Shown one piece after another: positions 3,993 through 63,851 of a stretch of 64,000 bases of DNA (position 1 is its first letter; the number at the start of each line of letters is the position of its first letter). Made by a program: the position numbers and the translations under genes. Source of the DNA: Phyto melanocephala (lineage: Eukaryota > Arthropoda > Insecta > Diptera > Rhinophoridae); the NCBI GenBank assembly GCA_941918925.1, contig OW799235.1:46875701-46939700 (forward strand). Reading direction: 5' to 3'. The notes under the pieces were generated by a model, which ran no database searches, was not told where the DNA came from, and saw only the letters and a program-made list of their open reading frames with translations.

Positions 3993-4084
3993 TGTTTTTC
4001 CAACTAGCATAGTTTTTAGGATCCTTCCATGGGCTTTCGGGTTACTATACCCTCAGCAAGACTAATTAACAGTATGTTACCAAT

Positions 4085-10350: not shown

Positions 10351-10735
10351 AAAAAAATTTTAAATTAAAAAAAAAAAAATTTATGTATGTTGTTGTAATT
10401 CTGAAAAAAAAACGAGGTGGTCGTGGTTTTTTTCTCATATCTCAGAAAGTTAAATGGCGATTGTGCTGAATTTCAATAGCGATTCATTCCCGGATATTTC
10501 CCAGAGATTGATACCATACACAGACCTGAGGAAAATATAGTTGCTTCTAAAAGTTGATTTCAACCAACACACGGGTAGACGTACAGGGCTTAATTGAATC
10601 CTCTATTCATAAGCTTTTAGAAAATATATACTTTATGGGGTCGGAAATGAAAATTGTAGAAATTACAAACGGAATGACAAAGCTATAAATACCCTTGTGC
10701 ACCACTGGGGAAGGGTATAAAAAAGGCCCTTAAAA
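10351..10735 (-). repeat. DINE-A 5'-half fragment, diverged
   Basis: Repeats the 5' half of family A (from the GAGGTGGTCGTGG block to GTGCACCACTGGGGAAGGG), with a distinct subfamily sequence in place of the CCCGAATATTTCTG block. The same subfamily recurs at 28343-29022. Confidence 0.75.
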
Positions 10736-12424
10736 CTTAACCACATTGGACAGTTTTAAATTTTTCTCTCATTTCTCTTCTTATTATATTGAAAATATCT
10801 ATTTTCTTTAATACAACATTTAAGAATACGTAAAAATAATAGCTTATAAATCACAGTGTATTTCGAAATAATATTCCATTTCTCTTCTATAATTTTTATA
10901 CCCGCCACCAAAAAAATTGTGGGGGTATATTCATTTTGTCATTCCGTTTGTAACGCATCGAAATATATATTTTAGACCCCATAAAGTATATATATTCTGA
11001 ATCGTGGTTTGATTTTATGACGATCTAGCTATGTCCGTCAGTTGAAAGCACGATAGAGGTCGCACCGAAAAAGCTAGGGGGCTCAAATTTTGCCAGCATC
11101 TTTCTTATAGACAAGGTTTGTATTGTATTGGTATTGAAAATGGGCTAAATCGGAATATTAGGAAGTGAATTATAGCTTGAATGCAAGAGTAGGTCGAAAA
11201 AACCGTGTGCTTCGAACATCGAATAAAATGGAATTGTGTCCAAACGCATTAACGCACAGTCATGAAACTTCGAATATATATTTCTCGAGTCAATACAATA
11301 TCTCTCCCCAAAAATTGCTTACATCTATGCATTAGGAACGGAGTTATAGATAAAAATGTACGAAAATTTATACCGCGCAGTGTATTTTTCAGTATATTTA
11401 AAATTTAAAACCTAATAAAACGGACAAAATTAGATGTTTGATTCTGAAATTTTGCCCACTTTGCTTTTTGGTGAGAGGCTTTTCTGTAATAAAGATTTTG
11501 GATTTTTTCTATTATTAAAGATTTTGGAATAATAAATAACTGTATTGAAACACCTAAGTTGTACTCATTAGCAAGAACAACTTTGAGACACCTACTATAA
11601 CGCCCACTTTTCACGTTGTCTACCGTTAATGAAATTTAAAAGCTCATCAAACCGATAAAATTCGAGGTATGATGATGAAATTTGCTACGTATATCCCTCT
11701 AGGCAATGTTATTACTATGCCAGAAAATTAAGGTGCCACGCCCACTTTTACGCCCACCTCCCATATAACGTTTTAACTGAAATTCATATAATTTCTCTAT
11801 CAATAAAGATTTTGGAATAATAAAGGACTATATTGAAATATCTAGGTTGTACTCATTAGCAAAAATTACTTTGACACGCCTACTATAACGCCCACTTTTC
11901 ACGTTATCTACCGTTAATGAAATTTAAAAACTCATAAAACCGCCAAAATTAGAGGTATGATGATCAAAGTTGCGACGTATATCCCTCTAGGCAATGTCAT
12001 TACTGTGCCAGAAAATTAAGGTGCCACGCCCACTTTTACGCCCACCTCCCATATAACGTTTTAACTGAAATTCATATAATGTCTCTATTAATAAAGATTT
12101 TAGAATAATAATGGACTATATTGGAATACCTAAGTTGTACTCATTAGCAAAAACAACTTTGACACGCCTACTATAACGCCCACTTTTTACGTTATCTACC
12201 GTTAATGAAATTTAAAAGCTCATCAAACCGATAAAATTCGAGGAATGATGATGAAATTTGCTGCGTATATCCCTCTAGGCAATGTTATTACTATGCCAGA
12301 AAATTAAGGTGACACGACCACTTTTACGCCCATCTCTCATATAACGTTTTGACTGAAATTCATATAATTTCTATATTAATAAAGATTGTGGAATAATAAA
12401 GGGCTATATTGAAATATCTAAGTA

Positions 12425-22155: not shown

Positions 22156-25100
22156 TGTAACACCCTGTTGTTACGATCAAGTACAATATGATACCGTTAT
22201 AAATTCCTCTTTACTAGTAAATGAAAAAAAAAGAACAATATTACAACAACAATCTCTAGATGATAAATTAACAATGACAAAAATTCCATGCACATAAATT
22301 CTTAGGAATGTTACAACAAACAATCTTTATGAATTTTAAGGAATTTTGTAACAACAAATGTTAAGGAATTTACATACAAGGTTAAAGTGCAGAACAACAA
22401 CAATGCAATGAAAACTTTAGTATAAATAGGTGTCAATGAAGAAAACTAGGTTAGTCTGTTTTGAGCTAGGAAACGATCGACATGGAATAAAACCTCTTTG
22501 AATATTAAACAAAAGGGTAAGTACCAAGTTATAACAAGTAGACATTTGATTAGTGATTTTCTAGTCACGACATCAATATTATAACACGTAGACCTTTGAT
22601 TAGTGATTTTCTAGTCACGACATCAAATTATAACACGTAGACATTTGATTAGTGATTTTCTAGTCACGACATCAAATTATAACACGTAGACATTTGGTTA
22701 GTGATTTTCTAGTCACGAAATCAAATTATAACACGTAGACATTTGATTAGTGATTTTCTAGTCACGACATCAAATTATAACACGTAGACATTTGGTTAGT
22801 GATTTTCTAGTCACGAAATCAAACTATAACACGTAGACATTTAGTTAGTGATTTTCTAGTCACGACATCAAAGTATAACAAGTAGACATTTGATTAGTGA
22901 TTTTCTAGTCACGACATCAAATTATAACACGTAGACATTTGATTAGTGATTTTCTAGTCACGACATCAATTTATAACACGTTGACATTTGGTTAGTGATT
23001 TTCTAGTCACGACATCAAATTAAACACGTAGATTTTGATTAGTGATTTTCTAGTCACGACATCAAATTATAACACGTAGACCTTGATTAGTGATTTTCTA
23101 GTCACGACATCAAATCATAACACGTAGACATTTGGTTAGTGATTTTCTAGTCACGACATCAAATTATAACACGTAGACCTTTGATTAGTGATTTTCTAGT
23201 CACGACATCAAATTATAACACGTAGACATTTGATTAGTGATTTTCTAGTCACGACATCAAATTATAACACGTAGACATTTGGTTAGTGATTTTCTAGTCA
23301 CGAAATCAAATTATAACACGTAGACATTTGATTAGTGATTTTCTAGTCACGACATCAAATTATAACACGTAGACATTTGGTTAGTGATTTTCTAGTCACG
23401 AAATCAAACTATAACACGTATACATTTAGTTAGTGATTTTCTAGTCACGACATCAAATTATAACACGTAGACATTTGGTTAGTGATTTTCTAGTCACGAA
23501 ATCAAACTATAACACGTAGACATTTAGTTAGTGATTTTCTAGTCACGACATCAAATTATAACACGTAGACATTTGGTTAGTGATTTTCTAGTCACGACAT
23601 CAATATTATAACACGTAGACCTTTGATTAGTGATTTTCTAGTCACGACATCAAATTATAACACGTAGACATTTGATTAGTGATTTTCTAGTCACGACATC
23701 AAATTATAACACGTAGACATTTGGTTAGTGATTTTCTAGTCACGAAATCAAATTATAACACGTAGACATTTGATTAGTGATTTTCTAGTCACGACATCAA
23801 ATTATAACACGTAGACATTTGGTTAGTGATTTTCTAGTCACGAAATCAAACTATAACACGTAGACATTTAGTTAGTGATTTTCTAGTTACGACATCAAAG
23901 TATAACAAGTAGACATTTGATTAGTGATTTTCTAGTCACGACATCAAATTATAACACGTAGACATTTGATTAGTGATTTTCTAGTCACGACATCAAATCA
24001 TAACACGTAGACATTTGGTTAGTGATTTTCTAGTCACGACATCAAATTATAACACGTAGACATTTGATTAGTGATTTTCTAGTCACGACATCAAATCATA
24101 ACACGTAGACATTTGGTTAGTGATTTTCTAGTCACGACATCAAATTATAACTCGTAGACATTTGGTTAGTGATTTTCTAGTCACGACATCAAATTATAAC
24201 ACGTAGACATTTGATTAGTGATTTTCTAGTCACGACATCAAATCATAACACGTAGACATTTGGTTAGTGATTTTCTAGTCACGACATCAGATTATAACTC
24301 GTAGACATTTGGTTAGTGATTTTCTAGTCACGACATCAAATTATAACACGTAGACATTTGATTAGTGATTTTCTAGTCACGACATCAAATCATAACACGT
24401 AGACATTTGGTTAGTGATTTTCTAGTCACGACATCAAATTATAACTCATAGACATTTGGTTAGTGATTTTCTAGTCACGACATCAAATTATAACACGTAG
24501 ACATTTCATTAGTGATTTTCTAGTCACGATATCAAATTATAACACGTAGACATTTGGTTAGTGATTTTCTAGTCACTACATCAAATTATAACTCGTAGAC
24601 ATTTGGTTAGTGATTTTCTAGTCACGACATCAAATTATAACACGTAGACATTTCATTAGTGATTTTCTAGTCACGATATCAAATTATAACACGTAGACAT
24701 TTGGTTAGTGATTTTCTAGTCACGACATCAAATTATAACACGTAGACCTTTGATTAGTGATTTTCTAGTCACGACATCAATTTATAACACGTAGACCTTT
24801 GATTAGTGATTTTCTAGTCACGACATCAATTTATAACCCGTTGACATTTGGTTAGTGATTTTCTAGTCACGACATCAAATTAAACACGTAGATTTTGATT
24901 AGTGATTTTCTAGTCACGACATCAAATTATAACACGTAGACCTTGATTAGTGATTTTCTAGTCACGAAATCAAATAACAATAATAAAAGTAAACATCTGA
25001 TTAGTCACATTTGTTAAATAAAATAAACAAGGGTAGTAACTGTCCAGACTTGACAAGTATACACCAGAGACATTGAAGTACGAAGGAAGTGGTGAATACA

Positions 25101-28342: not shown

Positions 28343-29022
28343 AAGTAACAGTGCTATATTCAGCAGTGCCGAATCTTATATACCCTTCACAACGTGTAGT
28401 CATGCAATACCAATTGTTTGTATCAAAATTGTTTGTAAAAAAATTGCTTGTAAAAAAAAATTACAAAAAAAATATATTAAAAATAAAAAAAAAATAATAA
28501 AAAAACTACAAAAAAAAATTAAAAAAAAAATTTTAAAAAATTTGTTTATAAAAATTGAAAAACAATAAACAACATAATAAAATATAAATAATATATTAAA
28601 TAAAATTAAATAAAATTTTTTTGGCTCAGCTGGAACTCGATGCCACGTTTACTTTAACCAGTATGTATGTAGGTTGTTGTTGTAATTGTGAAAAAAACGA
28701 GGTGGTCGTGGTTTTTTGCTCATATCTCAGAAATTTATGGGGCGATTGTGCTGAATTTCAATAGCGATTCATTCCTGGATATTTCCATATATATATGGAT
28801 GATACCATATATAGATCTGAGGAACATATAGTTGTTTCTAAAAGTTGATTTCAACCAACACAAGGACAGACGGACAGACGGTCAGGGCTTAATCGACTCC
28901 TCTATTCATAAGCTTTCAGAAAATATATACTTTATAGGGTCGGAACTGAAAACTGTAGAAATTACAAACGGAATGACAAAGCTATATATACCCTTGTGCA
29001 CCACAGGTGAAGGGTATAACAA
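28343..29022 (-). mobile_element. DINE-A copy
   Basis: The reverse-oriented hairpin end (AACAAGTAACAGTGC...AGTGCCGAATCTTATATAC) is at 28343. The 5' end, TTATACCCTTCACCTGTGG in reverse, is at about 29020. It belongs to the same subfamily as 10351-10735 and lies in the presumed Vps13D intron. Confidence 0.85.
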
Positions 29023-39739: not shown

Positions 39740-41400
39740 CTTCGATATGCTACTAAAATGCTTTTGTAAATGTAGTCTTTCAATGAAAGTGTGTTAAAGT
39801 AGCTGTGTCAATAAAGTTTCTGCTAATAAATACAACTTAAATATTTCAATATAGCCCTTTATTTTCCCAAAAACTTTGTCAATAGAGAAATTACATGAAT
39901 TTAAGATAAACCGTTATATGGGAGGTAGTCGTTAAAGTGGGTGTGTCACCTAAACTTTTTGGCACAACAATAACATTGATTAGAAGGATATACGTAGCAA
40001 ATTTGATCATCATACCTCTTATTTTGGCGGTTTTATGAGCTTTTAAATTACATTAACGGTCTATAACGTGAAAAGTGGGCGTTATAGTAGGCGTGTCAAA
40101 GTTATTTTTGCGAATGAGTACAACTTAGGTGTTTCAATATAGCCCTTTATTATTCCAAAATCTATATAAATTAAGAAGTTATATGAATTTTGGGTAAAAC
40201 GTTATATGGGAGGTGGGCGTAAAAGTGGGCGTGGCACTTCAATTTTTTGGAACAAAAATGAAATTGCCTAGGGGAATATACGTAGCAAATTTCATCATCA
40301 TACCTCTTATTTTGGCGGTTTTATGAGCTTTTAAATTACATTAACGGTATATAACGTGAAAAGTGGGCGTTATAGTAGGCGTGTAAAAGTTATTTTTGCG
40401 AATGAGTACAACTTAGGTGTTTCAAAATAGCCCTTTATAATTCCAAAATCTTTATAAATAGAGAAATTATATGAATTTTAAGTAAAACGTTATATGGGAG
40501 GTGGGCGTTAAAGTGGGCGTGGCGCCTTAATTTTCTGGCACAGTAATGACATTGCCTAGGAGGATATACGTAGCGAATTTGATCATCATACCTCTAATTT
40601 TGGCGGTTTTATAAGCTTTTAAATTTCATTAACGGTCTATAACGTGAAAGGTGGGCGTTATAGTAGGCGTGTCAAAGTTATTTTTGCGAATGAGTACAAC
40701 TTAGGTGTTTTAATATAGCCCTTTAGAATGCCAAAATCTTTATTAATAGAGAAATTATATGAATTTTAAGTAAAACGTTATATGGGAGGTGGGCGTTAAA
40801 GTGGGCGTGGCGCCTTAATTTTCTGGCGCAGTAATGACATTGCTTAGGAGGATATACGTAGCGAATTTGATCATCATACCTCTAATTTTGGCGGTTTTAT
40901 AAGCTTTTAAATTTCATTAACGGTATATAACGTGAAAAGTGGGCGTTATAGTAGGCGTGTCAAAGTTATTTTTGCGAATGAGTACAACTTAGGTGTTTCA
41001 AAATAGCCCTTTATAATTCCAAAATCTTTATAAATAGAGAAATTATATGAATTTTAAGTAAAACGTTATATGGGAGGTGGGCGTTAAAGTGGGCGTGGCG
41101 CCTTAATTTTCTCACGCAGTAATGACATTGCTTAGGAGGATATACGTAGCGAATTTGATCATCATACCTCTAATTTTGGCGGTTTTATGAGCTTTTAAAT
41201 TTCATTAACGGTATATAACGTGAAAAGTGGGCGTTATAGTGGGCGTGTCAAAGTTATATTTTCGAATGAGTACAATTGAGATGTTTCAATATAGCCCTTT
41301 ATTATTCCAAAATCTATATAAATTGAGAAATTATATGAATTTTGGGTAAAACGTTATATGGGAGGTGGGCGTAAAAGTGGGCGTGGCACATTGATTTTCC
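39740..41400. repeat. About 287-bp tandem array internal to DINE-B copy 3
   Basis: The landmark CGTTATATGGGAGGTGGGCG recurs near 39918, 40201, 40490, 40777, 41065 and 41350. Each unit also has GAAAAGTGGGCGTTATAGT and TTTTGGCGGTTTTATGAGC. Unit number differs between copies (about 1-2 in copy 1, 3-4 in copy 2, 6 here). Confidence 0.92.
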
Positions 41401-42980: not shown

Positions 42981-43328
42981 GATGCTATTTGTTTTTTAGG
43001 TATTGTTGTTGTTAAAAGAGGCATTGGGTACAGTGTGACACACAACTTTTTACCTAGAGCATATGTCAAGCTTATATATAAAGTAGCTTTTATACCGAGT
43101 TTCAATTTAAGACAAACACAGATTTTTACTTTACTGATTAAAAAAAATTAGAAATATATGTAATCAATTTTCTGTTTACATTTTCAGGTATATAAGTATG
43201 TTTATACATGTATTTTGATAATACGCATATCCTTTTAAGACTTTACCTTTATATATAAATGCCTAATTATTTTATTAGACCTATAAAGTTGTTTTTCTTG
43301 CCCGCATCTTTAAATCAATTATTTATTT
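42981..43328. other. No recognised gene
   Basis: Nothing identified. A 74-codon frame across the hairpin is not credible. Confidence 0.35.
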
Positions 43329-43973
43329 TTATACCCTTCACACAGTGAAAAAGGGTATATATAGGTTTGTCATTCCGTGTGAAATTTCTACAATTTTCAT
43401 TTCCGACCCCATAAAGTATATATTTTCTGAAAGCTTATGAATAGGGGAGTCGATTAAGCTCTGTCAGTCTGTCCGTCTGACCGTCTGTCCGTGTGTATGT
43501 TGAAATCAACTTTTTGAAGCCCCCCGACATAGGTTGGACCCGGGTATTAAAATATCAGAAATATTCGGGAGTAGATCGGTATTGAAAATCAGAAACATCG
43601 GTACATAAACAACTGAGATATGAGTAAAAACCCACGACCACCTCGATTTTTATTTCACAAAAACAACATTACAACAACAACATACATACATACAAACCCA
43701 TGTTCTGTAACTTTAGTGAGAACTTCTCGTATCGAAAAGTCATGAAACAAAATATCCCACCGTTTCTCGATGTGTGAGAAAAAAGTGTATCTGTAACTCA
43801 TGGCGAAAAATACCATTTATGATTACGTTGTTACGTTAGAGCTATCAAAAATTATACTTAATTATAAGAAGAAGAAGAAGAAAAAAAAATAAACTTTAGA
43901 AGTGCGGAAATAATAATACATATAAAATTTAGAAAATAAAAGTGTTTAAAAAAATAAGTGCAGAAGAAATAAA

Positions 43974-47709: not shown

Positions 47710-47954
47710 TATTTATTTATTTAAGTCTATGGATTCTAGATCCTTACAGACTAAAAAGCAGTACATACAAAATGTTTAATATTAGTTATTCAAAAACAAA
47801 ATAATTTTACATTTTACAATATTAACAATTAAGGAAAAATCAATATGTTGATAAAGTTTATTGAACTCGGTACAAATCCTCAAAAACGGATCGAAGTTGG
47901 CATAATTCGTTCTGAAAACTTTGACTGATAGCGGACAAAAACGACGTGTAGAAC
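47710..47954 (-). pseudogene. Palindrome-split LINE, C-terminal part and tail
   Basis: From 47954 down, the minus strand reads STRRFCPLSVKVFRTNYANF and ICTEFNKLYQHIDFS, equivalent to YEPLYVPFHRSNYINF and ICAEVNKFYVHIDFS of the LINE at 44649-45815. It ends in an (AAAT)-like tail at about 47710, exactly at the DINE-A terminus. Its N-terminal part is at 62675-63588, on the far side of the 14.7-kb palindrome. Confidence 0.88.
47949..47954 (+). repeat. 6-bp target-site duplication, left
   Basis: TAGAAC immediately before AGTAGTG, the palindrome start. Identical to 62675-62680. Confidence 0.93.
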
Positions 47955-48439
47955 AGTAGTGTAATTGTGGTGATTCTAACTCACTTTTTTCATACAAAAC
48001 GATGTGCATGCCAGTAGGGGTGTTCACAAAAATTGTGGAAAAATAATGTTGTAGTATTAAAATGAGAAGTATTTATATTTATCTGCACGCCCCTAATGTT
48101 AGATCGTCTATATTTATACAAACGTGCACATCATACATGGGCGTAGTCGTGGTTTACTTTTTGGGGGGGTTGGAAGCTTATACGTTTTAAGTAGTAAATG
48201 GCTGCAAAAGAGTTACTTACCAAAACAAACACATATAACATAAATCGTTTTTTGTGGGGTAGAAATATCTCTTTTCCCTCCTCATGTATACGCGCTTGCA
48301 TACATATTATAAGGGAGTTCGCGAAAAGTGTAATAGAATAATGACTCTAGTATTAAAATGAGGTATGTTTGTATTAATCGTATACTCCCTAATATTAATA
48401 TATATGTATGTATATATGTAGGTTTTAAAATTGAGTAAA

Positions 48440-49340
48440 GAAGTATGTGTTTATAATATATAACGTAAACAAACCGACGGACTGACAGACAGACTAACAG
48501 AAAGACAGAAGGGTAGAGAGATGGATAAATTGATTTTTACGATTCCTTGTTGTTAGGGTATATTTTGTTCATTTGTTTGTTTGTTTTACTGATCGTCTTA
48601 CACGAGCATGTATTTATTTTTAAGTCTTACAAGTGCGTGTGTTTATAATATATATCGTGGGTAAACAGACGGACTAACAGAAAGAGAGACGGACTGACAG
48701 AAAGACAGACGGACTGACAGATAGACAGAAGGGTAGAGAAATGGATAAATTGATCACTACGATTTTTTGTTATTATAGTATATTTTGTTTATTTGTTTGA
48801 TTATTTGAATGACCGTCTTACACTAGTACGTATTTATTGTTTAAGTCTTACAAGTTCGTGTGTTTATATATATGTCGTAGGCAAACAGACGGACTGACAG
48901 AAAGACAGACGGACTGACAGAAAGACAGACGGTCTGACAGATAGACAGAAGGGTAAAGAGATGGATAAATTGTTCACTATGATTCTTGTTGTTATAGTAC
49001 ATTTTTGTTTTTTTAATTGCTTAGTAAAATGATCGACTAATTCTACCATGGTAAAATATATACATGCATGTATATATTTTTTATGTCGTTCAAGTGGTGT
49101 GTGTTTATATTATCTATACATCGCAGCCAAACAGAAGGACAGACAGATTGACATACAAGACTGTCTATCCGTCGGATAGATTTTAGTCAGTTTGATTCTT
49201 TATTATTGTCATAGTTTAATTTTAATTATATTTTTTGTGTAGTAACATAATCGTCTTATATTAGCAAGTGTTTTTAAAGTCTTACAAGTGAATTTGTTTA
49301 TAATATATGTATGTCACAGACAAACAGGAGCTTTTATTCT
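48440..49340 (+). repeat. About 210-bp tandem array, left arm outer
   Basis: Four to five units carry GTGTTTATAATATAT, (CAGACGGACTGA)n, GGTAGAGAGATGGATAAATT and GTCTTACAAGT. Related units recur near the inner end of the arm (54640-55190), so the PolB gene is flanked by direct copies. Mirror: 61289-62189. Confidence 0.85.
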
Positions 49341-49757
49341 TAATTTCATCATAATAGAAGCATTTTAAACTGATATCATATTGATTGGTAAACTTATATT
49401 AAAATAGACATAAAAAAATGTGGCTTGAAAGATAATTAAATAAGTAAAATATGAAGAGAGAGGGAGAGAAATATAAATAGAAGGAAGGAGATAGAAAATA
49501 AACCTGTTTGAAAGATTTATGTATGTATGTATGTATGTTAATATAAGAAATTCAATTTTATTGTCTTCTTCTTAAAAAAAAAGTAAAAATAATAAATTTT
49601 TTAGTATTTAGCTTTTGATATCTCTAAATTGTTGATTGTGGTTTGAGATAATTTTTATAATTCTCATTTAGTTTATAATAATTTTCAATAAATATAGAGA
49701 ATAGTAAAGGTTATATTTCATTATCGTATATAATTTCTAATCGTTTACATCATCAAA

Positions 49758-52700
49758 ATGAAAAGTTTTAATTGTAAATTTTGTGAAAGCACATTCAGTC
49801 GAAACTTTTGTTTGAAACGTCATATAAGACTGCATCATCAAGAGCATTCGACAGAATGTAAGACGTGCAATATGAAATTCTCAAATCGTAAGGAATTTCT
49901 AAAGCATCAGCATTTAATAGATCATTCACAAAATATGAAAGATGGTAGTAGATATTGTGATGTTTGTAATTCACACATCGTATTAAATCTATGGCCGTAT
50001 CACTTACGCACAAACAAACATAAGCATAACTGCGTTGAACAAATAAATAACGTAAAATGTGTTACTTCAGTTTTTAAAAATCGCATTGCAACGTTTATAA
50101 TTGAAAATGATGATATGAATAATTTGATTCCTGAAATCTTTTTTTCTAACATTAAGGATAAAGTAATTAATATTTTAAAAGATATGTTGCACAAACATAT
50201 CAACATAAAATTTAATTGCGAATTATTTTGCGAGTATATGTTAGCAAAAGAAGAAGAAATATGTACAATAGACTTGAAGTCACACCAATCAAAAATGGTT
50301 ATAGTTAATGCGTCAGCAACAAGGGATGACATTCTTCCAATATACTTAAATCAATATAATATTTTAATAAAAAAGATGACTGAATTCCAAGAACGTGATA
50401 GTGGATGGACACTAGTAAAAATCTCACATCTAGAAGTTAATATCAATGAGTATAAGTGTATAAAAGGTTCTCAATTCATTCGTTTACCGCCAACAATTTT
50501 TAGAAAAAGAGCATGCATAAATGTTCATAATAACGATGAATATTGTTTTAAGTGGGCCATAGCATCAGCTTTGTATCCAATAGCTGCAAATTCAAGTAGA
50601 TGTTCCGAATATAAGATTCAAGATATTAAGGCTGATATTATAGTACTAGAAAATAATATAGTTTTAAATTTTAAAAATTTAAATTTTCCTTTGGCTGTTA
50701 ACAAAATTCAAGACTTCGAATTAAACAATCCGGAGATAAGTGTTAATGTTTTCGGTTTGGAGGATGATACAATTGTTGGTCCGTATTATTTCACTCAAAA
50801 GGAAAAATTAAATCACATTAATTTGCTGTTGTTAGAGAACGAAGAAAGATTTCACTACGTATGGATTAAAAATATATCAAGGTATGTTATTTAATATATT
50901 TACTTAAAAAAGAAAATTGTTTGTATAAGACTTAAAAGTATTTATTCTTTTATTTATTTGCAGACTGATTAGAAGTCAGATAACAAGTCATAATAATTTA
51001 ATATATGTATGCAATACTTGCTTAATCCACTTTCACAATGAGACAGCCTTAAAAAAACATAAGGAGGAATGCAACAGAATAGTAACTAAAATGCCTAGTG
51101 TAGATAATAATATACTTAGTTTTAAAAGTTTAAAAAAGCAAATGGATGTGCCATTTGTAGTTTATGCTGATTTCGAATGTATTCTGGAATCAGTTAATAT
51201 TCAGAATTCAAATAACGTTAAATCTGTACAAAAACATATTCCATTTGCTTACAGTTATTTTATTAAGTGTTCTTTCAACACAGACTTAGATATTTTTAGA
51301 ATATATAGCGGTGAAGATTCCTCACAACATTTTTTCCGAAACTTAGTTAACGATGTTAAATATATTTTTAATAATTATTTAAGTATAGTAAAACCAATGA
51401 ATTCCTTATCACCACTTCAACAGATAAAACAAACAGAAGATAAAATTTGTCATATCTGTAATAAATTTTTATCTCTTGAAGATAGAGTAGCTGACCATTG
51501 TCATTTAACTGGTGAATATAGAGGTCCTGCACATAATAAATGTAATTTAGAATATCAAACCGCAAACTTCATTCCTATATTTTTCCATAATCTTTCCGCA
51601 TATGATTCTCATTTGTTTATAAGAGAACTTTCATCTGTTGAAGGTGTTATAAATATCATTCCATTAAATAAAGAATTGTATGTATCGATATCAAAAAAAA
51701 TTTTGGTCAATGATAAAACTGTAATTGAACTACGTTTTCTAGATTCATTTCGGTTTATGTCATCAAGATTAGAAAAACTGGCAGGTTATTTATCTAATAG
51801 TGATTTAAAAACTGTAAAATCAGCATATCAAAATGATAATGAATTCAAACTAATGAAACGCAAGGGCGTCTTTCCGTATGATTATTTAGATTCTACAAAT
51901 CGTCTTCAAGAAGTTCAGTTACCATCACGTTCATTCTTTTTTAATAAATTAACTAATGTAATGTGTAGTGTTGATGATTACCAACATGCAGAAAAAGTGT
52001 GGAATACTTTTCAATGTAAAACTTTATTGGACTATTTACTTTTATATTTAAAAGTAGATGTTTTATTATTATGTGACATTTTTGAAAACTTTAGAAAACT
52101 TTGTAGAAATATTTACAATTTAGATCCCTGTCAATATTACACAGCACCTGGATTATCTTGGGATGCGATGTTGAAAACAACAGAAATAGAATTGGAATTG
52201 TTAACAGACATTAATATGTATAATTTTGTTGTACGAGGTATTAGGGGTGGTATTGTTCAGTGCAGTAAACGACACTCAACAGCTAATAATAAATATGTTA
52301 ACGATTATGATAATACGAAAGAATCAAATTATATAATTTATTTAGATGTAAATAACTTATATGGTTATGCTATGTCGCAATATCTTCCTTATAAAAATTT
52401 TGAATGGGTTGAAAACATTGAAGATTTTAATATTAATGATGTTCGAGATGATTCACAAACAGGATATATATTAGAAGTAGATTTAGAATATCCATATGCA
52501 TTACATGATTATCACAATGACTTACCATTTTGTGCCGAAAAAAAAAGTATTGAAATTATGAAACAATCTAAATTAATAACTGACTTAAATAATAAAACAA
52601 ATTATATAATACATTATATTAATCTTCAACAATGTATTAGGCATGGACTAATTTTAAAGAAAATACATAGAATTCTTAAATTTAGTCAGTCGAATTGGTT

Positions 52701-53575
52701 GAAAAAGTATATTGATTTAAATAATCATCATAGAACTTTAGCTAAAAATTCATTTGAACAAAACTTTTTTAAATTGTTAAATAATGCGGTCTATGGCAAG
52801 ACTATGGAAAATGTAGATAAAAGAAAAGACATAAAAATTGTGTGTGAATGGGAAAGTAGAGGTAAGAGGTTAGGAGCTAGAGCTCTTATAGCTAAACCTA
52901 ACTTTCATAGTTCTCTCAAAATTCATGATGAAATGATAGCGATTCAAATGAGTAGAACACGAATTGAATACAATAAACCTATTTACATTGGCTTCACAGT
53001 TTTAGAGTTATCAAAATCGAAAATGTATAGTTTCCATTATGATTATATGAAACCTAAATATCGAGACAATATCAATCTAAACTATATGGATACTGATTCT
53101 TTTATTTATGACATTAAAACAAATGATCTGTATGAGGACATTCGAAAAGATATTAACACACATTTCGATACGTCTGCATATCCAATACAAAATAAGTTTA
53201 ATTTTCCGCTAACAAACAAAAAAGTTTTAGGAATGATGAAAGACGAATGTAATGGTAAAATAATTAAGGAATTCATTGGCTTAAGAGCGAAAATGTATTC
53301 AGTTAACATTAATGGTGAAAACCAGGATATTAAGAAAATTAAAGGTGTTAAACAATGTGTAACTGATAAACTATCAATTAACGATTTTAGAAAATGTTTG
53401 TTAGAAAAAAAAACTATACTATGACTCCATGTATATATTTAGATCTAAAGTTCATCAAATTTATACTCAGCATATTAAGAAATTAGCATTAAGTTATTTA
53501 GATGATAAACGATTTATTAGAGAAAATGATGTAAATACATACGCATGGGGACATTATAAAATAAATAATAATTAA
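49758..53575 (+). CDS. Protein-primed family B DNA polymerase with zinc-finger/EndoVII modules (left arm)
   Basis: Exon 1 is 49758-50881. An 82-bp GT-AG intron (50882-50963) is followed by exon 2 from 50964. The N-terminus has C2H2 fingers (FNCKFCESTFSRNFCLKRHI, CDVCNSHIVLNLWPYHL), then FKWAIASALYPIAAN and YVWIKNISR phrases and a further finger (CNTCLIHFHNETALKKH). The polymerase follows: exo I YADFEC (D and E), an endonuclease-VII-like insert (CHICNKF...ADHCHLTGEYRG), exo II FFHNLSAYDSHLF, a KVDVLLLCD exo III, Pol A LDVNNLYGYAM, Pol B LLNNAVYGKTMEN and Pol C YMDTDSF. About 1,245 codons in all. A one-base offset in an A9 run (53405-53413) puts a stop at 53422, and the last 50 codons lie in another frame. 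Confidence 0.9.
50882..50963 (+). other. Spliceosomal intron of PolB gene (left arm)
   Basis: TCAAG|GTATGTT at the donor and TTATTTATTTGCAG|ACTG at the acceptor. Joining keeps the frame (codon AG|A). Mirror: 59666-59747. Confidence 0.85.
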
Positions 53576-54312
53576 TAATATTAAATAAATTTGTAACTAA
53601 ATGTTAAGATATTTTATAAGAAAAGAAAAATGTATAATAAAAAATAAAGAAAAAAAGTAACAACTCATATCATTATTAAATATAATTTTAAAACATATGT
53701 GACATATTTTATTAACAAGATGATAAAAAAGAATTATGTTTCACAAGGAGTGAAAAAGAGAAAAAAAAAAATTGTTTATGAGTCAATTTTAATGTTCTTT
53801 TCTTAATTATTTGCTGTTCTGGCAATATAATGTGTATTGTCCTTTATAGAATTCCAATACATTTTTTTTTGTTTGTTATAGTTTAGTTTGTTTATTTCGT
53901 CTATGAAATTTCAAGTATAAAATTTCAAGAGAATAATAAAAAAATTATGTTTAATTTTTTTTATTGTATTTTTTTAATATTGTTCTGATAATACAGTGTA
54001 AAATGTTTATAACCAAACAATCGGATAGATTGATCACTTTAATTCTTTGTTGTTGTTATAGTTTAGTTCCTTTATTTTGTTAATATTAAAAAAAAAAAAA
54101 CAATTAAAATGTTTTTACTAGTCCTTTTCCGTGCAGGGTATGTTTTCCACTGAACTTGTTAATTGCATATACAGTTATTTAGAAAAACTTCAGTTTTCTT
54201 CTTCTTTTATTAAAAACAGATAATGTTAAATGCATATAAATTAAGTTCCGATGACATAATAATTTTATAATTCGAAAAGTAGACAGTGCCACACCCATAA
54301 AAATTAAATTTT

Positions 54313-54631
54313 TAAACAGATTCGTGAAACAGCTAAACAGCTTCGTGAAACAGCTAAACAGCTCCTTAAAACAGCTAAACAGCTTCGTGAAACAGCTAAA
54401 CAGCTTCGTGAAACAGCTAAACAGCTTCGTGAAACAGCTAAACAGCTCCTTAAAACAGCTAAACAGCTTCGTGAAACAGCTAAACAGCTTCGTGTAACAG
54501 CTAAACAGCTTCATGAAACAGCTAAACAGCTTCGTGAAACAGCTAAACAGCTTCGTTAAACAGCTAAACAGCTCCTTAAAACAGCTAAACAGCTCCCTAG
54601 AACAGCTAAACAGCTTCGTGAAACAGCTAAA
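54313..54631 (+). repeat. 21-bp minisatellite, left arm
   Basis: About 15 copies of AGCTTCGTGAAACAGCTAAAC with variants (CTCCTTAAAACAGCTAAA). The open frame across it on the minus strand (repeating LFSCFTK) is a by-product of the 21-bp period. Mirror: 55998-56316. Confidence 0.95.
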
Positions 54632-54639
54632 CAACAAAT

Positions 54640-55190
54640 GCATAGGTTTATAATATATGTCGTGGGCAAACAGATGGACTAACAGGAAGAGAGACGGACT
54701 GATAGAAAGACAGACGGACTGATAGAAAGACAGACGGACTGACAGATATACAAAAGAGTAGAGAGATGGATAAATTGATCACTACGATTATTTGTTGTTA
54801 TAGTATATTTTGTTTATTTGTTTGATTATATTAGTACCCGTCTTACACTAGTATGTATTTATTTTTTAAATCATACAAGTGAATTTGTTTATTATATATG
54901 TATGTCACAGACGGACCTACAGATAGATTGAAATACAGGCAGATATGATTACAAATAAAATTATATTAACATTTTTTTTTTGTGTGTTTAATACAGGCAT
55001 GCAGACGGGCTGACAAAAAGACAGACTGACAGACGGACAGAAGGGTAGAGAGATGGATAAATTGATTATTATGATTCCTTATTGTTAGGGTATATTTTAT
55101 TCATTTGTATGTTTGTTTTAGTGATCGTCTTACACGAGCATGTATTTATTTTTTAAGTCTTACAAGTGCGTGTGTTTATTATATGTATAT
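54640..55190 (+). repeat. About 210-bp repeat array, left arm inner
   Basis: About three units related to 48440-49340, including GACAGACGGACTGA runs and GGTAGAGAGATGGATAAATT. Mirror: 55439-55989. Confidence 0.85.
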
Positions 55191-55340
55191 GCCACAGACG
55201 GACAGGACTTAATCGAATCCCCTATTCATAAGCTTTCAGAAAATATATACTTTATGGGGTCGGAAATGAAAATTGTAGAAATTACAAACGGAATGACAAA
55301 GCTATATGCTTGTGCACCACAGGTGAAGGGTATAAAAACG
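55191..55340 (-). repeat. DINE-A 5'-end fragment at palindrome centre
   Basis: CAGACGGACAGGACTTAATC through TATACTTTATGGGGTCGG to GTGAAGGGTATAAAAA is the 5' end of DINE-A in reverse orientation. The first 93 bp are mirrored at 55346-55438. The last 57 bp lie in the spacer and are single-copy. Confidence 0.88.
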
Positions 55341-55345
55341 TTTTG
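55284..55345. other. Central 62-bp spacer of palindrome
   Basis: The only asymmetric stretch, starting ACAAACGGAATGACAAAGC and ending AAAAACGTTTTG. It contains the terminus of the DINE-A fragment. In a folded strand it would be the loop of a 7.3-kb hairpin. Confidence 0.92.
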
Positions 55346-55438
55346 AATTTCTACAATTTTCATTTCCGACCCCATAAAGTATATATTTTCTGAAAGCTTA
55401 TGAATAGGGGAGTCGATTAAGTCCTGTCCGTCTGTGGC

Positions 55439-55989
55439 ATATACATATAATAAACACACGCACTTGTAAGACTTAAAAAATAAATACATGCTCGTGTAAG
55501 ACGATCACTAAAACAAACATACAAATGAATAAAATATACCCTAACAATAAGGAATCATAATAATCAATTTATCCATCTCTCTACCCTTCTGTCCGTCTGT
55601 CAGTCTGTCTTTTTGTCAGCCCGTCTGCATGCCTGTATTAAACACACAAAAAAAAAATGTTAATATAATTTTATTTGTAATCATATCTGCCTGTATTTCA
55701 ATCTATCTGTAGGTCCGTCTGTGACATACATATATAATAAACAAATTCACTTGTATGATTTAAAAAATAAATACATACTAGTGTAAGACGGGTACTAATA
55801 TAATCAAACAAATAAACAAAATATACTATAACAACAAATAATCGTAGTGATCAATTTATCCATCTCTCTACTCTTTTGTATATCTGTCAGTCCGTCTGTC
55901 TTTCTATCAGTCCGTCTGTCTTTCTATCAGTCCGTCTCTCTTCCTGTTAGTCCATCTGTTTGCCCACGACATATATTATAAACCTATGC
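55439..55989 (-). repeat. About 210-bp repeat array, right arm inner
   Basis: Mirror of 54640-55190. Confidence 0.85.
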
Positions 55990-55997
55990 ATTTGTTG

Positions 55998-56316
55998 TTT
56001 AGCTGTTTCACGAAGCTGTTTAGCTGTTCTAGGGAGCTGTTTAGCTGTTTTAAGGAGCTGTTTAGCTGTTTAACGAAGCTGTTTAGCTGTTTCACGAAGC
56101 TGTTTAGCTGTTTCATGAAGCTGTTTAGCTGTTACACGAAGCTGTTTAGCTGTTTCACGAAGCTGTTTAGCTGTTTTAAGGAGCTGTTTAGCTGTTTCAC
56201 GAAGCTGTTTAGCTGTTTCACGAAGCTGTTTAGCTGTTTCACGAAGCTGTTTAGCTGTTTTAAGGAGCTGTTTAGCTGTTTCACGAAGCTGTTTAGCTGT
56301 TTCACGAATCTGTTTA
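55998..56316 (-). repeat. 21-bp minisatellite, right arm
   Basis: Mirror of 54313-54631 with the same variant order. Confidence 0.95.
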
Positions 56317-57053
56317 AAAATTTAATTTTTATGGGTGTGGCACTGTCTACTTTTCGAATTATAAAATTATTATGTCATCGGAACTTAATTTATATGCATT
56401 TAACATTATCTGTTTTTAATAAAAGAAGAAGAAAACTGAAGTTTTTCTAAATAACTGTATATGCAATTAACAAGTTCAGTGGAAAACATACCCTGCACGG
56501 AAAAGGACTAGTAAAAACATTTTAATTGTTTTTTTTTTTTTAATATTAACAAAATAAAGGAACTAAACTATAACAACAACAAAGAATTAAAGTGATCAAT
56601 CTATCCGATTGTTTGGTTATAAACATTTTACACTGTATTATCAGAACAATATTAAAAAAATACAATAAAAAAAATTAAACATAATTTTTTTATTATTCTC
56701 TTGAAATTTTATACTTGAAATTTCATAGACGAAATAAACAAACTAAACTATAACAAACAAAAAAAAATGTATTGGAATTCTATAAAGGACAATACACATT
56801 ATATTGCCAGAACAGCAAATAATTAAGAAAAGAACATTAAAATTGACTCATAAACAATTTTTTTTTTTCTCTTTTTCACTCCTTGTGAAACATAATTCTT
56901 TTTTATCATCTTGTTAATAAAATATGTCACATATGTTTTAAAATTATATTTAATAATGATATGAGTTGTTACTTTTTTTCTTTATTTTTTATTATACATT
57001 TTTCTTTTCTTATAAAATATCTTAACATTTAGTTACAAATTTATTTAATATTA

Positions 57054-60000
57054 TTAATTATTATTTATTTTATAATGTCCCCATGCGTATGTATTTACAT
57101 CATTTTCTCTAATAAATCGTTTATCATCTAAATAACTTAATGCTAATTTCTTAATATGCTGAGTATAAATTTGATGAACTTTAGATCTAAATATATACAT
57201 GGAGTCATAGTATAGTTTTTTTTTCTAACAAACATTTTCTAAAATCGTTAATTGATAGTTTATCAGTTACACATTGTTTAACACCTTTAATTTTCTTAAT
57301 ATCCTGGTTTTCACCATTAATGTTAACTGAATACATTTTCGCTCTTAAGCCAATGAATTCCTTAATTATTTTACCATTACATTCGTCTTTCATCATTCCT
57401 AAAACTTTTTTGTTTGTTAGCGGAAAATTAAACTTATTTTGTATTGGATATGCAGACGTATCGAAATGTGTGTTAATATCTTTTCGAATGTCCTCATACA
57501 GATCATTTGTTTTAATGTCATAAATAAAAGAATCAGTATCCATATAGTTTAGATTGATATTGTCTCGATATTTAGGTTTCATATAATCATAATGGAAACT
57601 ATACATTTTCGATTTTGATAACTCTAAAACTGTGAAGCCAATGTAAATAGGTTTATTGTATTCAATTCGTGTTCTACTCATTTGAATCGCTATCATTTCA
57701 TCATGAATTTTGAGAGAACTATGAAAGTTAGGTTTAGCTATAAGAGCTCTAGCTCCTAACCTCTTACCTCTACTTTCCCATTCACACACAATTTTTATGT
57801 CTTTTCTTTTATCTACATTTTCCATAGTCTTGCCATAGACCGCATTATTTAACAATTTAAAAAAGTTTTGTTCAAATGAATTTTTAGCTAAAGTTCTATG
57901 ATGATTATTTAAATCAATATACTTTTTCAACCAATTCGACTGACTAAATTTAAGAATTCTATGTATTTTCTTTAAAATTAGTCCATGCCTAATACATTGT
58001 TGAAGATTAATATAATGTATTATATAATTTGTTTTATTATTTAAGTCAGTTATTAATTTAGATTGTTTCATAATTTCAATACTTTTTTTTTCGGCACAAA
58101 ATGGTAAGTCATTGTGATAATCATGTAATGCATATGGATATTCTAAATCTACTTCTAATATATATCCTGTTTGTGAATCATCTCGAACATCATTAATATT
58201 AAAATCTTCAATGTTTTCAACCCATTCAAAATTTTTATAAGGAAGATATTGCGACATAGCATAACCATATAAGTTATTTACATCTAAATAAATTATATAA
58301 TTTGATTCTTTCGTATTATCATAATCGTTAACATATTTATTATTAGCTGTTGAGTGTCGTTTACTGCACTGAACAATACCACCCCTAATACCTCGTACAA
58401 CAAAATTATACATATTAATGTCTGTTAACAATTCCAATTCTATTTCTGTTGTTTTCAACATCGCATCCCAAGATAATCCAGGTGCTGTGTAATATTGACA
58501 GGGATCTAAATTGTAAATATTTCTACAAAGTTTTCTAAAGTTTTCAAAAATGTCACATAATAATAAAACATCTACTTTTAAATATAAAAGTAAATAGTCC
58601 AATAAAGTTTTACATTGAAAAGTATTCCACACTTTTTCTGCATGTTGGTAATCATCAACACTACACATTACATTAGTTAATTTATTAAAAAAGAATGAAC
58701 GTGATGGTAACTGAACTTCTTGAAGACGATTTGTAGAATCTAAATAATCATACGGAAAGACGCCCTTGCGTTTCATTAGTTTGAATTCATTATCATTTTG
58801 ATATGCTGATTTTACAGTTTTTAAATCACTATTAGATAAATAACCTGCCAGTTTTTCTAATCTTGATGACATAAACCGAAATGAATCTAGAAAACGTAGT
58901 TCAATTACAGTTTTATCATTGACCAAAATTTTTTTTGATATCGATACATACAATTCTTTATTTAATGGAATGATATTTATAACACCTTCAACAGATGAAA
59001 GTTCTCTTATAAACAAATGAGAATCATATGCGGAAAGATTATGGAAAAATATAGGAATGAAGTTTGCGGTTTGATATTCTAAATTACATTTATTATGTGC
59101 AGGACCTCTATATTCACCAGTTAAATGACAATGGTCAGCTACTCTATCTTCAAGAGATAAAAATTTATTACAGATATGACAAATTTTATCTTCTGTTTGT
59201 TTTATCTGTTGAAGTGGTGATAAGGAATTCATTGGTTTTACTATACTTAAATAATTATTAAAAATATATTTAACATCGTTAACTAAGTTTCGGAAAAAAT
59301 GTTGTGAGGAATCTTCACCGCTATATATTCTAAAAATATCTAAGTCTGTGTTGAAAGAACACTTAATAAAATAACTGTAAGCAAATGGAATATGTTTTTG
59401 TACAGATTTAACGTTATTTGAATTCTGAATATTAACTGATTCCAGAATACATTCGAAATCAGCATAAACTACAAATGGCACATCCATTTGCTTTTTTAAA
59501 CTTTTAAAACTAAGTATATTATTATCTACACTAGGCATTTTAGTTACTATTCTGTTGCATTCCTCCTTATGTTTTTTTAAGGCTGTCTCATTGTGAAAGT
59601 GGATTAAGCAAGTATTGCATACATATATTAAATTATTATGACTTGTTATCTGACTTCTAATCAGTCTGCAAATAAATAAAAGAATAAATACTTTTAAGTC
59701 TTATACAAACAATTTTCTTTTTTAAGTAAATATATTAAATAACATACCTTGATATATTTTTAATCCATACGTAGTGAAATCTTTCTTCGTTCTCTAACAA
59801 CAGCAAATTAATGTGATTTAATTTTTCCTTTTGAGTGAAATAATACGGACCAACAATTGTATCATCCTCCAAACCGAAAACATTAACACTTATCTCCGGA
59901 TTGTTTAATTCGAAGTCTTGAATTTTGTTAACAGCCAAAGGAAAATTTAAATTTTTAAAATTTAAAACTATATTATTTTCTAGTACTATAATATCAGCCT

Positions 60001-60871
60001 TAATATCTTGAATCTTATATTCGGAACATCTACTTGAATTTGCAGCTATTGGATACAAAGCTGATGCTATGGCCCACTTAAAACAATATTCATCGTTATT
60101 ATGAACATTTATGCATGCTCTTTTTCTAAAAATTGTTGGCGGTAAACGAATGAATTGAGAACCTTTTATACACTTATACTCATTGATATTAACTTCTAGA
60201 TGTGAGATTTTTACTAGTGTCCATCCACTATCACGTTCTTGGAATTCAGTCATCTTTTTTATTAAAATATTATATTGATTTAAGTATATTGGAAGAATGT
60301 CATCCCTTGTTGCTGACGCATTAACTATAACCATTTTTGATTGGTGTGACTTCAAGTCTATTGTACATATTTCTTCTTCTTTTGCTAACATATACTCGCA
60401 AAATAATTCGCAATTAAATTTTATGTTGATATGTTTGTGCAACATATCTTTTAAAATATTAATTACTTTATCCTTAATGTTAGAAAAAAAGATTTCAGGA
60501 ATCAAATTATTCATATCATCATTTTCAATTATAAACGTTGCAATGCGATTTTTAAAAACTGAAGTAACACATTTTACGTTATTTATTTGTTCAACGCAGT
60601 TATGCTTATGTTTGTTTGTGCGTAAGTGATACGGCCATAGATTTAATACGATGTGTGAATTACAAACATCACAATATCTACTACCATCTTTCATATTTTG
60701 TGAATGATCTATTAAATGCTGATGCTTTAGAAATTCCTTACGATTTGAGAATTTCATATTGCACGTCTTACATTCTGTCGAATGCTCTTGATGATGCAGT
60801 CTTATATGACGTTTCAAACAAAAGTTTCGACTGAATGTGCTTTCACAAAATTTACAATTAAAACTTTTCAT
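57054..60871 (-). CDS. Protein-primed family B DNA polymerase with zinc-finger/EndoVII modules (right arm)
   Basis: Mirror copy of the gene at 49758-53575 with identical translated segments. Exon 1 is 60871-59748, the intron 59747-59666, and exon 2 runs from 59665 downwards. The same A9-run frameshift (57216-57224) stops the main frame at 57205. Identity of a probable inactivating shift in both arms means the duplication happened after the shift, or the arms have been homogenised. All polymerase and exonuclease motifs are present. Protein-primed polymerases copy linear DNA from a terminal-protein primer, which fits an element with inverted ends. Confidence 0.9.
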
Positions 60872-61288
60872 TTTGATGATGTAAACGATTAGAAATTATA
60901 TACGATAATGAAATATAACCTTTACTATTCTCTATATTTATTGAAAATTATTATAAACTAAATGAGAATTATAAAAATTATCTCAAACCACAATCAACAA
61001 TTTAGAGATATCAAAAGCTAAATACTAAAAAATTTATTATTTTTACTTTTTTTTTAAGAAGAAGACAATAAAATTGAATTTCTTATATTAACATACATAC
61101 ATACATACATAAATCTTTCAAACAGGTTTATTTTCTATCTCCTTCCTTCTATTTATATTTCTCTCCCTCTCTCTTCATATTTTACTTATTTAATTATCTT
61201 TCAAGCCACATTTTTTTATGTCTATTTTAATATAAGTTTACCAATCAATATGATATCAGTTTAAAATGCTTCTATTATGATGAAATTA

Positions 61289-62189
61289 AGAATAAAAGCT
61301 CCTGTTTGTCTGTGACATACATATATTATAAACAAATTCACTTGTAAGACTTTAAAAACACTTGCTAATATAAGACGATTATGTTACTACACAAAAAATA
61401 TAATTAAAATTAAACTATGACAATAATAAAGAATCAAACTGACTAAAATCTATCCGACGGATAGACAGTCTTGTATGTCAATCTGTCTGTCCTTCTGTTT
61501 GGCTGCGATGTATAGATAATATAAACACACACCACTTGAACGACATAAAAAATATATACATGCATGTATATATTTTACCATGGTAGAATTAGTCGATCAT
61601 TTTACTAAGCAATTAAAAAAACAAAAATGTACTATAACAACAAGAATCATAGTGAACAATTTATCCATCTCTTTACCCTTCTGTCTATCTGTCAGACCGT
61701 CTGTCTTTCTGTCAGTCCGTCTGTCTTTCTGTCAGTCCGTCTGTTTGCCTACGACATATATATAAACACACGAACTTGTAAGACTTAAACAATAAATACG
61801 TATTAGTGTAAGACGGTCATTCAAATAATCAAACAAATAAACAAAATATACTATAATAACAAAAAATCGTAGTGATCAATTTATCCATTTCTCTACCCTT
61901 CTGTCTATCTGTCAGTCCGTCTGTCTTTCTGTCAGTCCGTCTCTCTTTCTGTTAGTCCGTCTGTTTACCCACGATATATATTATAAACACACGCACTTGT
62001 AAGACTTAAAAATAAATACATGCTCGTGTAAGACGATCAGTAAAACAAACAAACAAATGAACAAAATATACCCTAACAACAAGGAATCGTAAAAATCAAT
62101 TTATCCATCTCTCTACCCTTCTGTCTTTCTGTTAGTCTGTCTGTCAGTCCGTCGGTTTGTTTACGTTATATATTATAAACACATACTTC
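61289..62189 (-). repeat. About 210-bp tandem array, right arm outer
   Basis: Mirror of 48440-49340. Confidence 0.85.
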
Positions 62190-62674
62190 TTTACTCAATT
62201 TTAAAACCTACATATATACATACATATATATTAATATTAGGGAGTATACGATTAATACAAACATACCTCATTTTAATACTAGAGTCATTATTCTATTACA
62301 CTTTTCGCGAACTCCCTTATAATATGTATGCAAGCGCGTATACATGAGGAGGGAAAAGAGATATTTCTACCCCACAAAAAACGATTTATGTTATATGTGT
62401 TTGTTTTGGTAAGTAACTCTTTTGCAGCCATTTACTACTTAAAACGTATAAGCTTCCAACCCCCCCAAAAAGTAAACCACGACTACGCCCATGTATGATG
62501 TGCACGTTTGTATAAATATAGACGATCTAACATTAGGGGCGTGCAGATAAATATAAATACTTCTCATTTTAATACTACAACATTATTTTTCCACAATTTT
62601 TGTGAACACCCCTACTGGCATGCACATCGTTTTGTATGAAAAAAGTGAGTTAGAATCACCACAATTACACTACT

Positions 62675-62680
62675 TAGAAC
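62675..62680 (+). repeat. 6-bp target-site duplication, right
   Basis: TAGAAC immediately after CACTACT. Identical to 47949-47954. Confidence 0.93.
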
Positions 62681-63588
62681 GACATGATACATTAAAAAAG
62701 ATATTCGCTAATAGGAAATCAGAGCATATACATCCTTTAATTAAATTTAGAACCAACGTAACGTTTAACATTGTTCTACGACTTTTTAAAGTTGGCAGCT
62801 TCACTAGTGCAAGTCTACTAGTATAAGGCGGCAGGCTTAACGAATTCCACTGTAAGCCACGAAGACAAAATAGCGAAACTGTTTTTGCACAGATTCAATG
62901 CTATTAATATAAACATTGTAAGTTGGATCCCAAATTATTGAACCATACTCAAGAATAGGCCTGACAAGAGAAATATACAATTGTATTGTTATATATGGAT
63001 CTGTAAACTCTTTCGCCCAACGTTTTATGAATTCAAGGACAGCACGTGCTTTATTAACAGTTAAAGAAATATGCTGAATAAAATTTAGTTTAGCATCTAA
63101 TAGGATTCGAAGATCGGAGACGGATTCCAGTCTTTTTAACGTAAAACCATTTAAAACATAATTAACTTTAATATAACATCTACGAAAGAAACACATATAT
63201 TTGCATTTTTCAGGGTTCAGCTCCATTAAATTAAATCTACACCATACATTAAAAGCATCTATATCCATTTGTAAGAGGGTATGATCGGCGTAATTATTAT
63301 AACTTAGGAATATTTTTACGTCGTCAGCATACATAATAACGTTTGAGAATTTAATAGCATTTGGTAAATCATTAATAAACAAGGAAAACAGCAATGGACC
63401 AAGATGACTTCCCTGAGGAACACGAGAAACAACGGCTATTGGTTTAGAGATAATGTTTTTAAAACGAACATTTTGTTTTCTATTTGTCAAATACGAATAA
63501 ATCCACTTAAGGGAGTTCTGTGTAAATCCCATTACATCAAGTTTTTTTATTAGAAGTTTATGGTTAACTTTATCAAAGGCTTTGAAAT
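62675..63588 (-). pseudogene. Palindrome-split LINE, reverse transcriptase part
   Basis: The minus strand reads AFDKVNHKLLIKKLDVMGF, RVPQGSHLGPLLFSLFINDL, the catalytic YADDVKIF, LNPEKCKYMCF and LVRPILEYGSIIWDP. A frameshift near 62840 moves the frame to LQWNSLSLPPYTSRLALVK and SRRTMLN. It ends in NVSCRS at the duplication, continuing as TRRFCPL at 47948. The 5' end is truncated at about 63588. It is a Jockey/CR1-like LINE related to 44525-45935. Confidence 0.88.
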
Positions 63589-63851
63589 TTTAAATTTGTG
63601 AGCATAAAGATATTATATACCTACCCTGCAGTCAGCCTGGAGCCAAGTGTCCCTTTGTCAACACTCTTTTCTCTAGCGACAACTGCACTAGTGAAAAAGT
63701 CGACAACCTTTCTTCTGCACACGAGTAGAAACTAGCTATAGACAACAGATCTAGTATATTTTTTCAGATCTAGTTTGTTTTTAAAAAGTGTTCAATAATT
63801 AAAAAAAAGGTGATTAAAATGATATTGTGTATAAATAAAAAAAATAAAAAA
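63589..63851 (+). promoter_or_regulatory. Possible 5' untranslated/promoter region
   Basis: Unlike its surroundings this stretch is not a recognised repeat. It precedes a candidate first exon with a clear splice donor. No TATA box is certain. It could instead be a retrotransposon LTR edge. Confidence 0.25.

Follow-up and report, generated by a model that had tools for sequence, protein, structure and literature searches.

Foldback transposons, to which Galileo and FB belong, and the incomplete particles of adenovirus, which are snap-back or inverted-duplication genomes of a protein-primed replicon, are among the described systems closest to the element that is the subject of this report: a palindrome with a polymerase gene in each arm, located in a 64-kb stretch of DNA of Phyto melanocephala (contig OW799235.1, positions 46,875,701 to 46,939,700; over its whole length this stretch is referred to as the window). 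Intact vertebrate Mavericks, or Polintons, have been described as carrying end motifs of (AG)3 or (AGT)2, duplications of 6 bp and repeats of 46-1,447 bp (PMC8097293), and foldback forms as arising in different lineages through loss of the transposase and lengthening of the repeats (PMC4079207). Like the element, plasmids of the pAL2-1 type combine protein-primed linear DNA with inverted repeats, and these repeats have been suggested to derive from racquet or panhandle replication intermediates (PMC1864894).

The element shares with Polintons/Mavericks (adintovirus-like) the 6-bp duplications, the AGTAGT tips, which are of the (AGT)2//(ACT)2 type described for the vertebrate elements (PMC8097293), a phi29-like polymerase of the protein-primed lineage and a similar total length. 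Mavericks have terminal repeats of hundreds of bp around a unique core, whereas here two 7.3-kb arms leave only a 48-bp centre, and the polymerase gene is present twice, in mirror order. No integrase of retrovirus type, packaging ATPase, protease or capsid gene was found in the arm frames examined (a list of frames of at least 80 aa, with Pfam searches on three of them only: exon 1, exon 2 and a 199-aa repeat frame), and beyond the two polymerase exons none of these frames is longer than 199 aa. An earlier, sequence-only reading of the window had called the element Polinton-like, a description that is appropriate for the polymerase lineage, tips and duplications but not for the usual gene set. 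With the foldback transposon Tetris the element has in common arms that constitute most of its length, tandem repeats within the arms and a likely reliance on outside enzymes (PMC4079207), but foldback transposons differ in lacking the Maverick-type ends, the 6-bp duplications and the polymerase gene in each arm that are seen here. Unlike snap-back genomes, it is a heritable, transposing lineage of the nuclear genome in which the inverted repeat is the whole element. Foldback elements and Mavericks are each already known; palindromic Mavericks appear in none of the titles and abstract openings among the matches listed from the open-licence literature, Repbase lying outside this search.

The palindrome and its insertion sites

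The palindrome spans positions 47955-62674 and consists of two 7,336-bp arms around a 48-bp spacer, with 4 mismatches (48826/61803, 55217/55412, 55284/55345 and 55285/55344) and no indels. It is far too large to have arisen by chance and is genuine in the assembly, the window containing no N; moreover, its right flank, which is unlike the left, and its target duplication argue against an artefact of fold-back reads. The sequence-only reading had recognized the same structure, but its 7,329-bp arms and 62-bp spacer were cut short before the mismatches at 55284-55285, and two mismatches, where it had noticed one, lie within those 7,329 bp. Its statement that the arms contain no indel was upheld, as were the AGTAGTG...CACTACT termini and the TAGAAC duplication, whose six bases are present on both the left and the right flank. 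The arm identity, which it had left to be computed, amounts to 4 mismatches in 7,336 bp.

The genome containing the window (740 Mb in 9 contigs) was searched with the polymerase, and 54 matches were scored from 468 candidates at first look: 30 at 86% identity or more, distributed over 15 loci, three at 78-80% and 21 at 59-62%. Adjacent matches among the 30 high-identity copies face each other in convergent orientation, and in 11 of the 15 loci both tips are present, flanked by identical 6-bp sequences that differ at every site. Six of these duplications are TAGAAC (window), GATTTT, AATTAA, GGTAGG, TAGACT and TATTTC, while AAAATT and AACATT were read directly from the flanks, the automatic test having been misled by two matching flank bases. 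The locus at C3:44.2 Mb (TGCTTG), with polymerase copies about 22 kb apart, was counted from its ends, its middle being unread, and the copies at C1:144 Mb (GAGGGT) and C2:92.5 Mb (CGCTCT) each contain a 200-N gap; the first of these two had been considered as a one-arm deletion until the gap within it was recognized. AGTAGT tips are present at the window copy and at other copies. Identical 6-bp flanks at differing sites show that the whole palindrome integrates, and the palindrome is therefore the form that enters the genome, at many sites and with 6-bp duplications. The proposal of the sequence-only reading that the element transposed as a palindrome is thus borne out, and the further palindromic copies that it suggested looking for do exist, at differing sites and with 6-bp duplications, so that the window element is a member of a family and not a lone odd copy.

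A separate search that took the 400 bp at the start of the arm as query, in which 40 tips were scored of 84 candidates and which provides a lower bound, yielded four inverted tip pairs at a spacing of 1.6-2.1 kb, too close, as judged from the spacing, to hold the polymerase gene. In all three pairs whose ends were fetched the 6-bp flanks are equal (GGTGGA, GAAATA and AACACA), so that these short pairs have been inserted in the manner of the longer copies. Equal flanks around tip pairs too short for the gene suggest that the tips suffice in cis. From the agreement of tips and duplication length with a full Maverick, the element could be moved by an enzyme supplied from elsewhere, as in foldback elements. 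Twelve of the 40 listed tips have no listed partner, but with the list a lower bound they need not be solitary, and one of them (C5:82.0 Mb) has a known partner.

Other arrangements of the polymerase were also encountered. A compound copy at C2:92471730-92496602 (L073-L075) holds four polymerase matches within the single duplication CGCTCT, with an assembly gap in mid-copy. At C6:4.23-4.25 Mb (L078, L079), a more distant group is represented by two polymerase copies that face each other across a tandem satellite with a unit of about 255 bp, as derived from alignment offsets; this pair was set aside as a palindrome, since the repeat stops at an assembly gap and the middle is tandem satellite. 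Finally, at 15 places in C1-C3, polymerases of one group score equally as matches and share an open frame of 1290 aa (two of these places, L062 and L063, partly read), which suggests a recent burst.

The polymerase gene and the full Mavericks

The gene carried by each arm is a predicted phi29-like, protein-primed DNA polymerase, protein priming being the probable mode in view of its lineage. The nine best PDB fold matches of a structure model of exon 2 are all to phi29 DNA polymerase (E 6.5e-15 to 3.7e-12), and of 7,980 scored candidates 4,662 are homologues at E of at most 0.001; named proteins with the highest scores include those of the flies Lucilia sericata (78%), Stomoxys calcitrans (71%), Hermetia illucens (59%) and Calliphora vicina (58%). 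PF03175, the organellar/viral polymerase B family, was matched by three of 13 aligned proteins, and not by the window's own. A PHROGs search returned endonuclease VII and zinc-finger matches, others being weak; at the sequence level the PDB gave no match to the single polymerase protein and zinc-finger chains with the polymerase profile, and six polymerase peptide patterns had no match in the viral contigs searched. The open frame of exon 2 (from 50929) has 831 codons in both window arms, versus 881 in several near-identical copies. Between subfamilies the polymerase evolves as though under purifying selection, as shown by ratios of nonsynonymous to synonymous substitution rates for exon 2 of 0.22-0.30 in six comparisons among palindromic subfamilies; the corresponding values between palindromic elements and full Mavericks are 0.11-0.15, at or close to saturation of the synonymous sites.

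A full Maverick of the 59% group, at C1:166506727-166520689, has terminal repeats of about 650 bp that are 99.4% alike, the tip AGTAGTATATTTGTGG and the duplication AGTAAT, and carries a match to an A32-like ATPase as well as an integrase with a sub-threshold chromodomain match. In the 78-80% group, no inverted polymerase copy was present in the 12-15 kb or so read around each of two of the three copies, and the genes of one copy encode an A32-like ATPase, a double-jelly-roll capsid protein and an integrase, whose chromodomain match is likewise below threshold, with a RING protein upstream. Outside the polymerase region, this full element resembles the arm at the nucleotide level only in a 35-bp match. 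The palindrome is thus of the same polymerase lineage as full Mavericks of this genome, and its tip motif and duplication length match those of the one Maverick read to both ends.

Arms, centres and the mode of copying

The likeness of the arms was studied on fetched pieces of up to 5.5 kb, with arms aligned over at least 3 kb. By mismatch rate, the arm nearest to a given arm is its own partner in 11 of 12 pairs, the exception being C2:34.12 Mb, and four pairs are free of any difference over about 5.5 kb. In each of 17 comparisons between elements (3.3-4.3 kb), there are 3 to 18 mirrored sites, at which the two arms of an element carry one base and the two arms of the other element another; a site split in both elements is absent from 16 comparisons and occurs once in the remaining one. 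This scarcity of shared splits beside many mirrored sites is the reverse of what would be expected if the arms had evolved independently within an inherited palindrome; a master palindrome of this kind was consequently dropped. The arms are thus homogenised copy by copy, within copies. Near the centre of the window element, mirrored sites include 54968/55661 (against both L051 and L052, two further copies with the same spacer) and 55068/55561 (against L051), and position 55217 is altered in one window arm only. Splits common to several copies do occur at the edge of the spacer, at two sites in three copies of subfamily A and at three sites in two of three copies of subfamily B, which fits a loop edge that escapes correction. 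For differences in homopolymer length the mirroring is incomplete.

The centres carry information on how the palindromes began. Three copies of subfamily A (window, C1:133.7 and C4:58.0) have the 48-bp spacer in common with zero differences, and three copies of subfamily B (C3:107.1, C2:18.2 and C5:82.0) share a spacer of 772-775 bp; this recurrence of spacers between copies led to rejection, as a general rule, of the idea that every palindrome arises anew from a single arm. In the window element, a dispersed host repeat, of which the window contains four more copies of 147-149 bp (10207-10353, 10577-10723, 28874-29022 and 43326-43472), sits at the centre and ends where the inverted arm starts, the right arm carrying only an inverted part of it. 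A snap-back at the end of the host repeat would produce this layout, which suits a beginning of the window subfamily's palindrome by such an event; the snap-back or inverted-dimer origin proposed by the sequence-only reading is accordingly plausible. Two of the host repeat copies diverge from each other near the same end point as the repeat of the centre, so the stop at the centre may also be the repeat's own end, the repeat having been inserted or captured there. At C1:74.0 Mb, the arms track those of the window to about 53741 and then continue with other sequence around a spacer of 135 bp; such other centres may alternatively have arisen by deletion or exchange at the centre once the palindrome had formed. 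A chimeric palindrome is seen at C2:34.12 Mb (L010), where the inner part of one arm (about 3576-4080) is 99% identical to L021 and the remainder is of subfamily A.

The explanation that we favour, with a probability of roughly 0.58, is that the palindrome represents a foldback lineage of Mavericks/Polintons with a polymerase gene only and a borrowed integrase, which is copied outside the chromosome on its own template and which started by snap-back at a host repeat. The element would be copied extrachromosomally by protein-primed strand displacement, the displaced or nascent strand would fold back through the spacer, and in the folded strand one arm would template or correct the other. The nearly perfect palindrome would then be inserted by an integrase from full Mavericks, probably acting in trans on tips that are putative replication origins as well as integrase sites, and the window subfamily would have arisen by a template switch at a host repeat adjoining, or captured by, a single-arm element. 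To our knowledge, Maverick replication intermediates have so far been inferred and not seen; a mobile family built as a nearly complete inverted dimer, its arms corrected copy by copy, preserves in its sequence a trace of the way in which such DNA may be copied. The family further suggests that a Maverick polymerase can persist without adjoining integrase or capsid genes, as a parasite of a parasite. The host genome is probably prone to rearrangement at the long inverted arms. A further-reaching version, put forward tentatively and at somewhat less than even odds, is that of a heritable Maverick satellite resembling a defective genome, in which every transposition would pass through a self-templating hairpin, arm rewriting arm, with the polymerase under selection and the integrase, perhaps the capsid also, stolen.

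A number of observations weigh against the favoured explanation. In the piece fetched from C5:89.8 Mb, the likeness of the arms ends at position 3,366, and the arms at C2:34.12 Mb differ at 28 sites within an inner tract that resembles another subfamily. The locus at C3:44.2 Mb was counted as a palindrome in spite of its unread middle; C5:82.0 Mb has unequal flanks, C2:34.27 Mb shows a right tip only, with no left tip where expected, and at C4:110.3 Mb the right tip is altered and the left was not found where expected. C2:7.85 Mb is a single arm; it was rejected as a pre-palindrome ancestor, as the host sequence in it belongs to another subtype and the 10 kb read contain no right tip, and it is more likely a half-palindrome left by ectopic recombination. 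The exon 2 model behind the fold match has a mean predicted local distance difference test score (pLDDT) of only 63.8. In addition, the mirrored substitutions private to subfamily A comprise 10 non-synonymous, 4 synonymous and 2 non-coding changes, one being a stop, and the shortened frame of the window copy is likewise mirrored in both arms; such changes look neutral, which fits either conversion after insertion or the last rounds of copying.

It is this apparent neutrality, stop included, that speaks for the possibility that the element is the same but that its arms are kept alike by arm-to-arm gene conversion within the chromosome after insertion, transposition merely moving an existing palindrome. 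A precedent is provided by the palindromes of the human Y chromosome, described as having arms more than 99.9% alike and a mean conversion tract of 2068 bp (PMC3723533). However, the ratio of mirrored to split sites varies among eight copies (permutation P 0.003, with the inner tract of C2:34.12 Mb excluded), a mild argument against conversion at a single constant rate, even though the variation becomes unclear without one doubtful copy (seven copies, P 0.06). The four pairs without any difference contrast with others that have several, and with insertions on 5 of the 9 contigs conversion would need to be fast everywhere. We regard conversion in place as a live but doubtful alternative, hairpin or U-turn copying outside the chromosome being given somewhat better odds as the source of the homogenisation. 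A conventional foldback transposon of another superfamily, for instance Mutator-like, that captured a Maverick polymerase gene would account for the long arms and the roughly 220-bp tandem repeats in them, which recall Tetris of Drosophila virilis, but the duplications described for Tetris are of 8-10 bp (PMC4079207), against 6 bp here, and the AGTAGT tips correspond both to the (AGT)2 motif of vertebrate Mavericks (PMC8097293) and to the full Maverick of this genome; such a capture is very unlikely. That the palindromes could be inverted duplications introduced by fold-back reads or by the assembler is hardly credible: the 200-N gaps inside the C1:144 and C2:92.5 Mb copies and beside the C6 pair indicate that these structures strain the assembly, but right flanks are unlike left ones, the same 6-bp duplication brackets 11 of the 15 loci, spacers recur between loci, and the arms of some copies differ.

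Feature positions and neighbouring repeats

Table 1. Features of the palindromic element, numbered from the first nucleotide of the window.
Feature	Position	Strand
Left target-site duplication, TAGAAC	47949..47954	
Right target-site duplication, TAGAAC	62675..62680	
Left palindrome arm, 7336 bp, tip AGTAGTGTAATTGTGG	47955..55290	+
Right arm, inverted copy, 4 mismatches against the left arm	55339..62674	-
Non-palindromic spacer, 48 bp, same in two further copies (L051, L052)	55291..55338	
Copy of the dispersed host repeat; makes up the spacer and the adjoining inner end of the left arm	55194..55338	+
Left-arm subterminal tandem repeats, about 220 bp each, containing inner units of 20 bp	48484..49014	+
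Subterminal tandem repeats as in the left arm (about 220 bp), right arm	61615..62145	-
21-bp tandem array, left arm, within which the centre of the C2:34.12 Mb copy lies	54313..54633	+
21-bp tandem array, right arm	55996..56316	-
Polymerase exon 1, left arm; C2H2-type zinc fingers below the Pfam cut-off, limits by eye	49758..50881	+
Intron, 82 nt, GT..AG, placed by eye from the sequence and homologues continuous across it	50882..50963	+
Polymerase exon 2, left arm; predicted phi29-like family B polymerase with endonuclease VII-like domain	50964..53424	+
Polymerase exon 1, right arm, mirror coordinates	59748..60871	-
Polymerase exon 2, right arm, mirror coordinates	57205..59665	-

On its right side the element is adjoined by a reverse transcriptase fragment on the minus strand (62840-63589; RVT_1, E 7.9e-21). 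Elsewhere in the window, about 50 copies of a 49-bp unit are arranged in tandem at 22525-24975, with 94% matches, and tandem units of 288 bp form two arrays, at 11504-12423 and 39817-41399.

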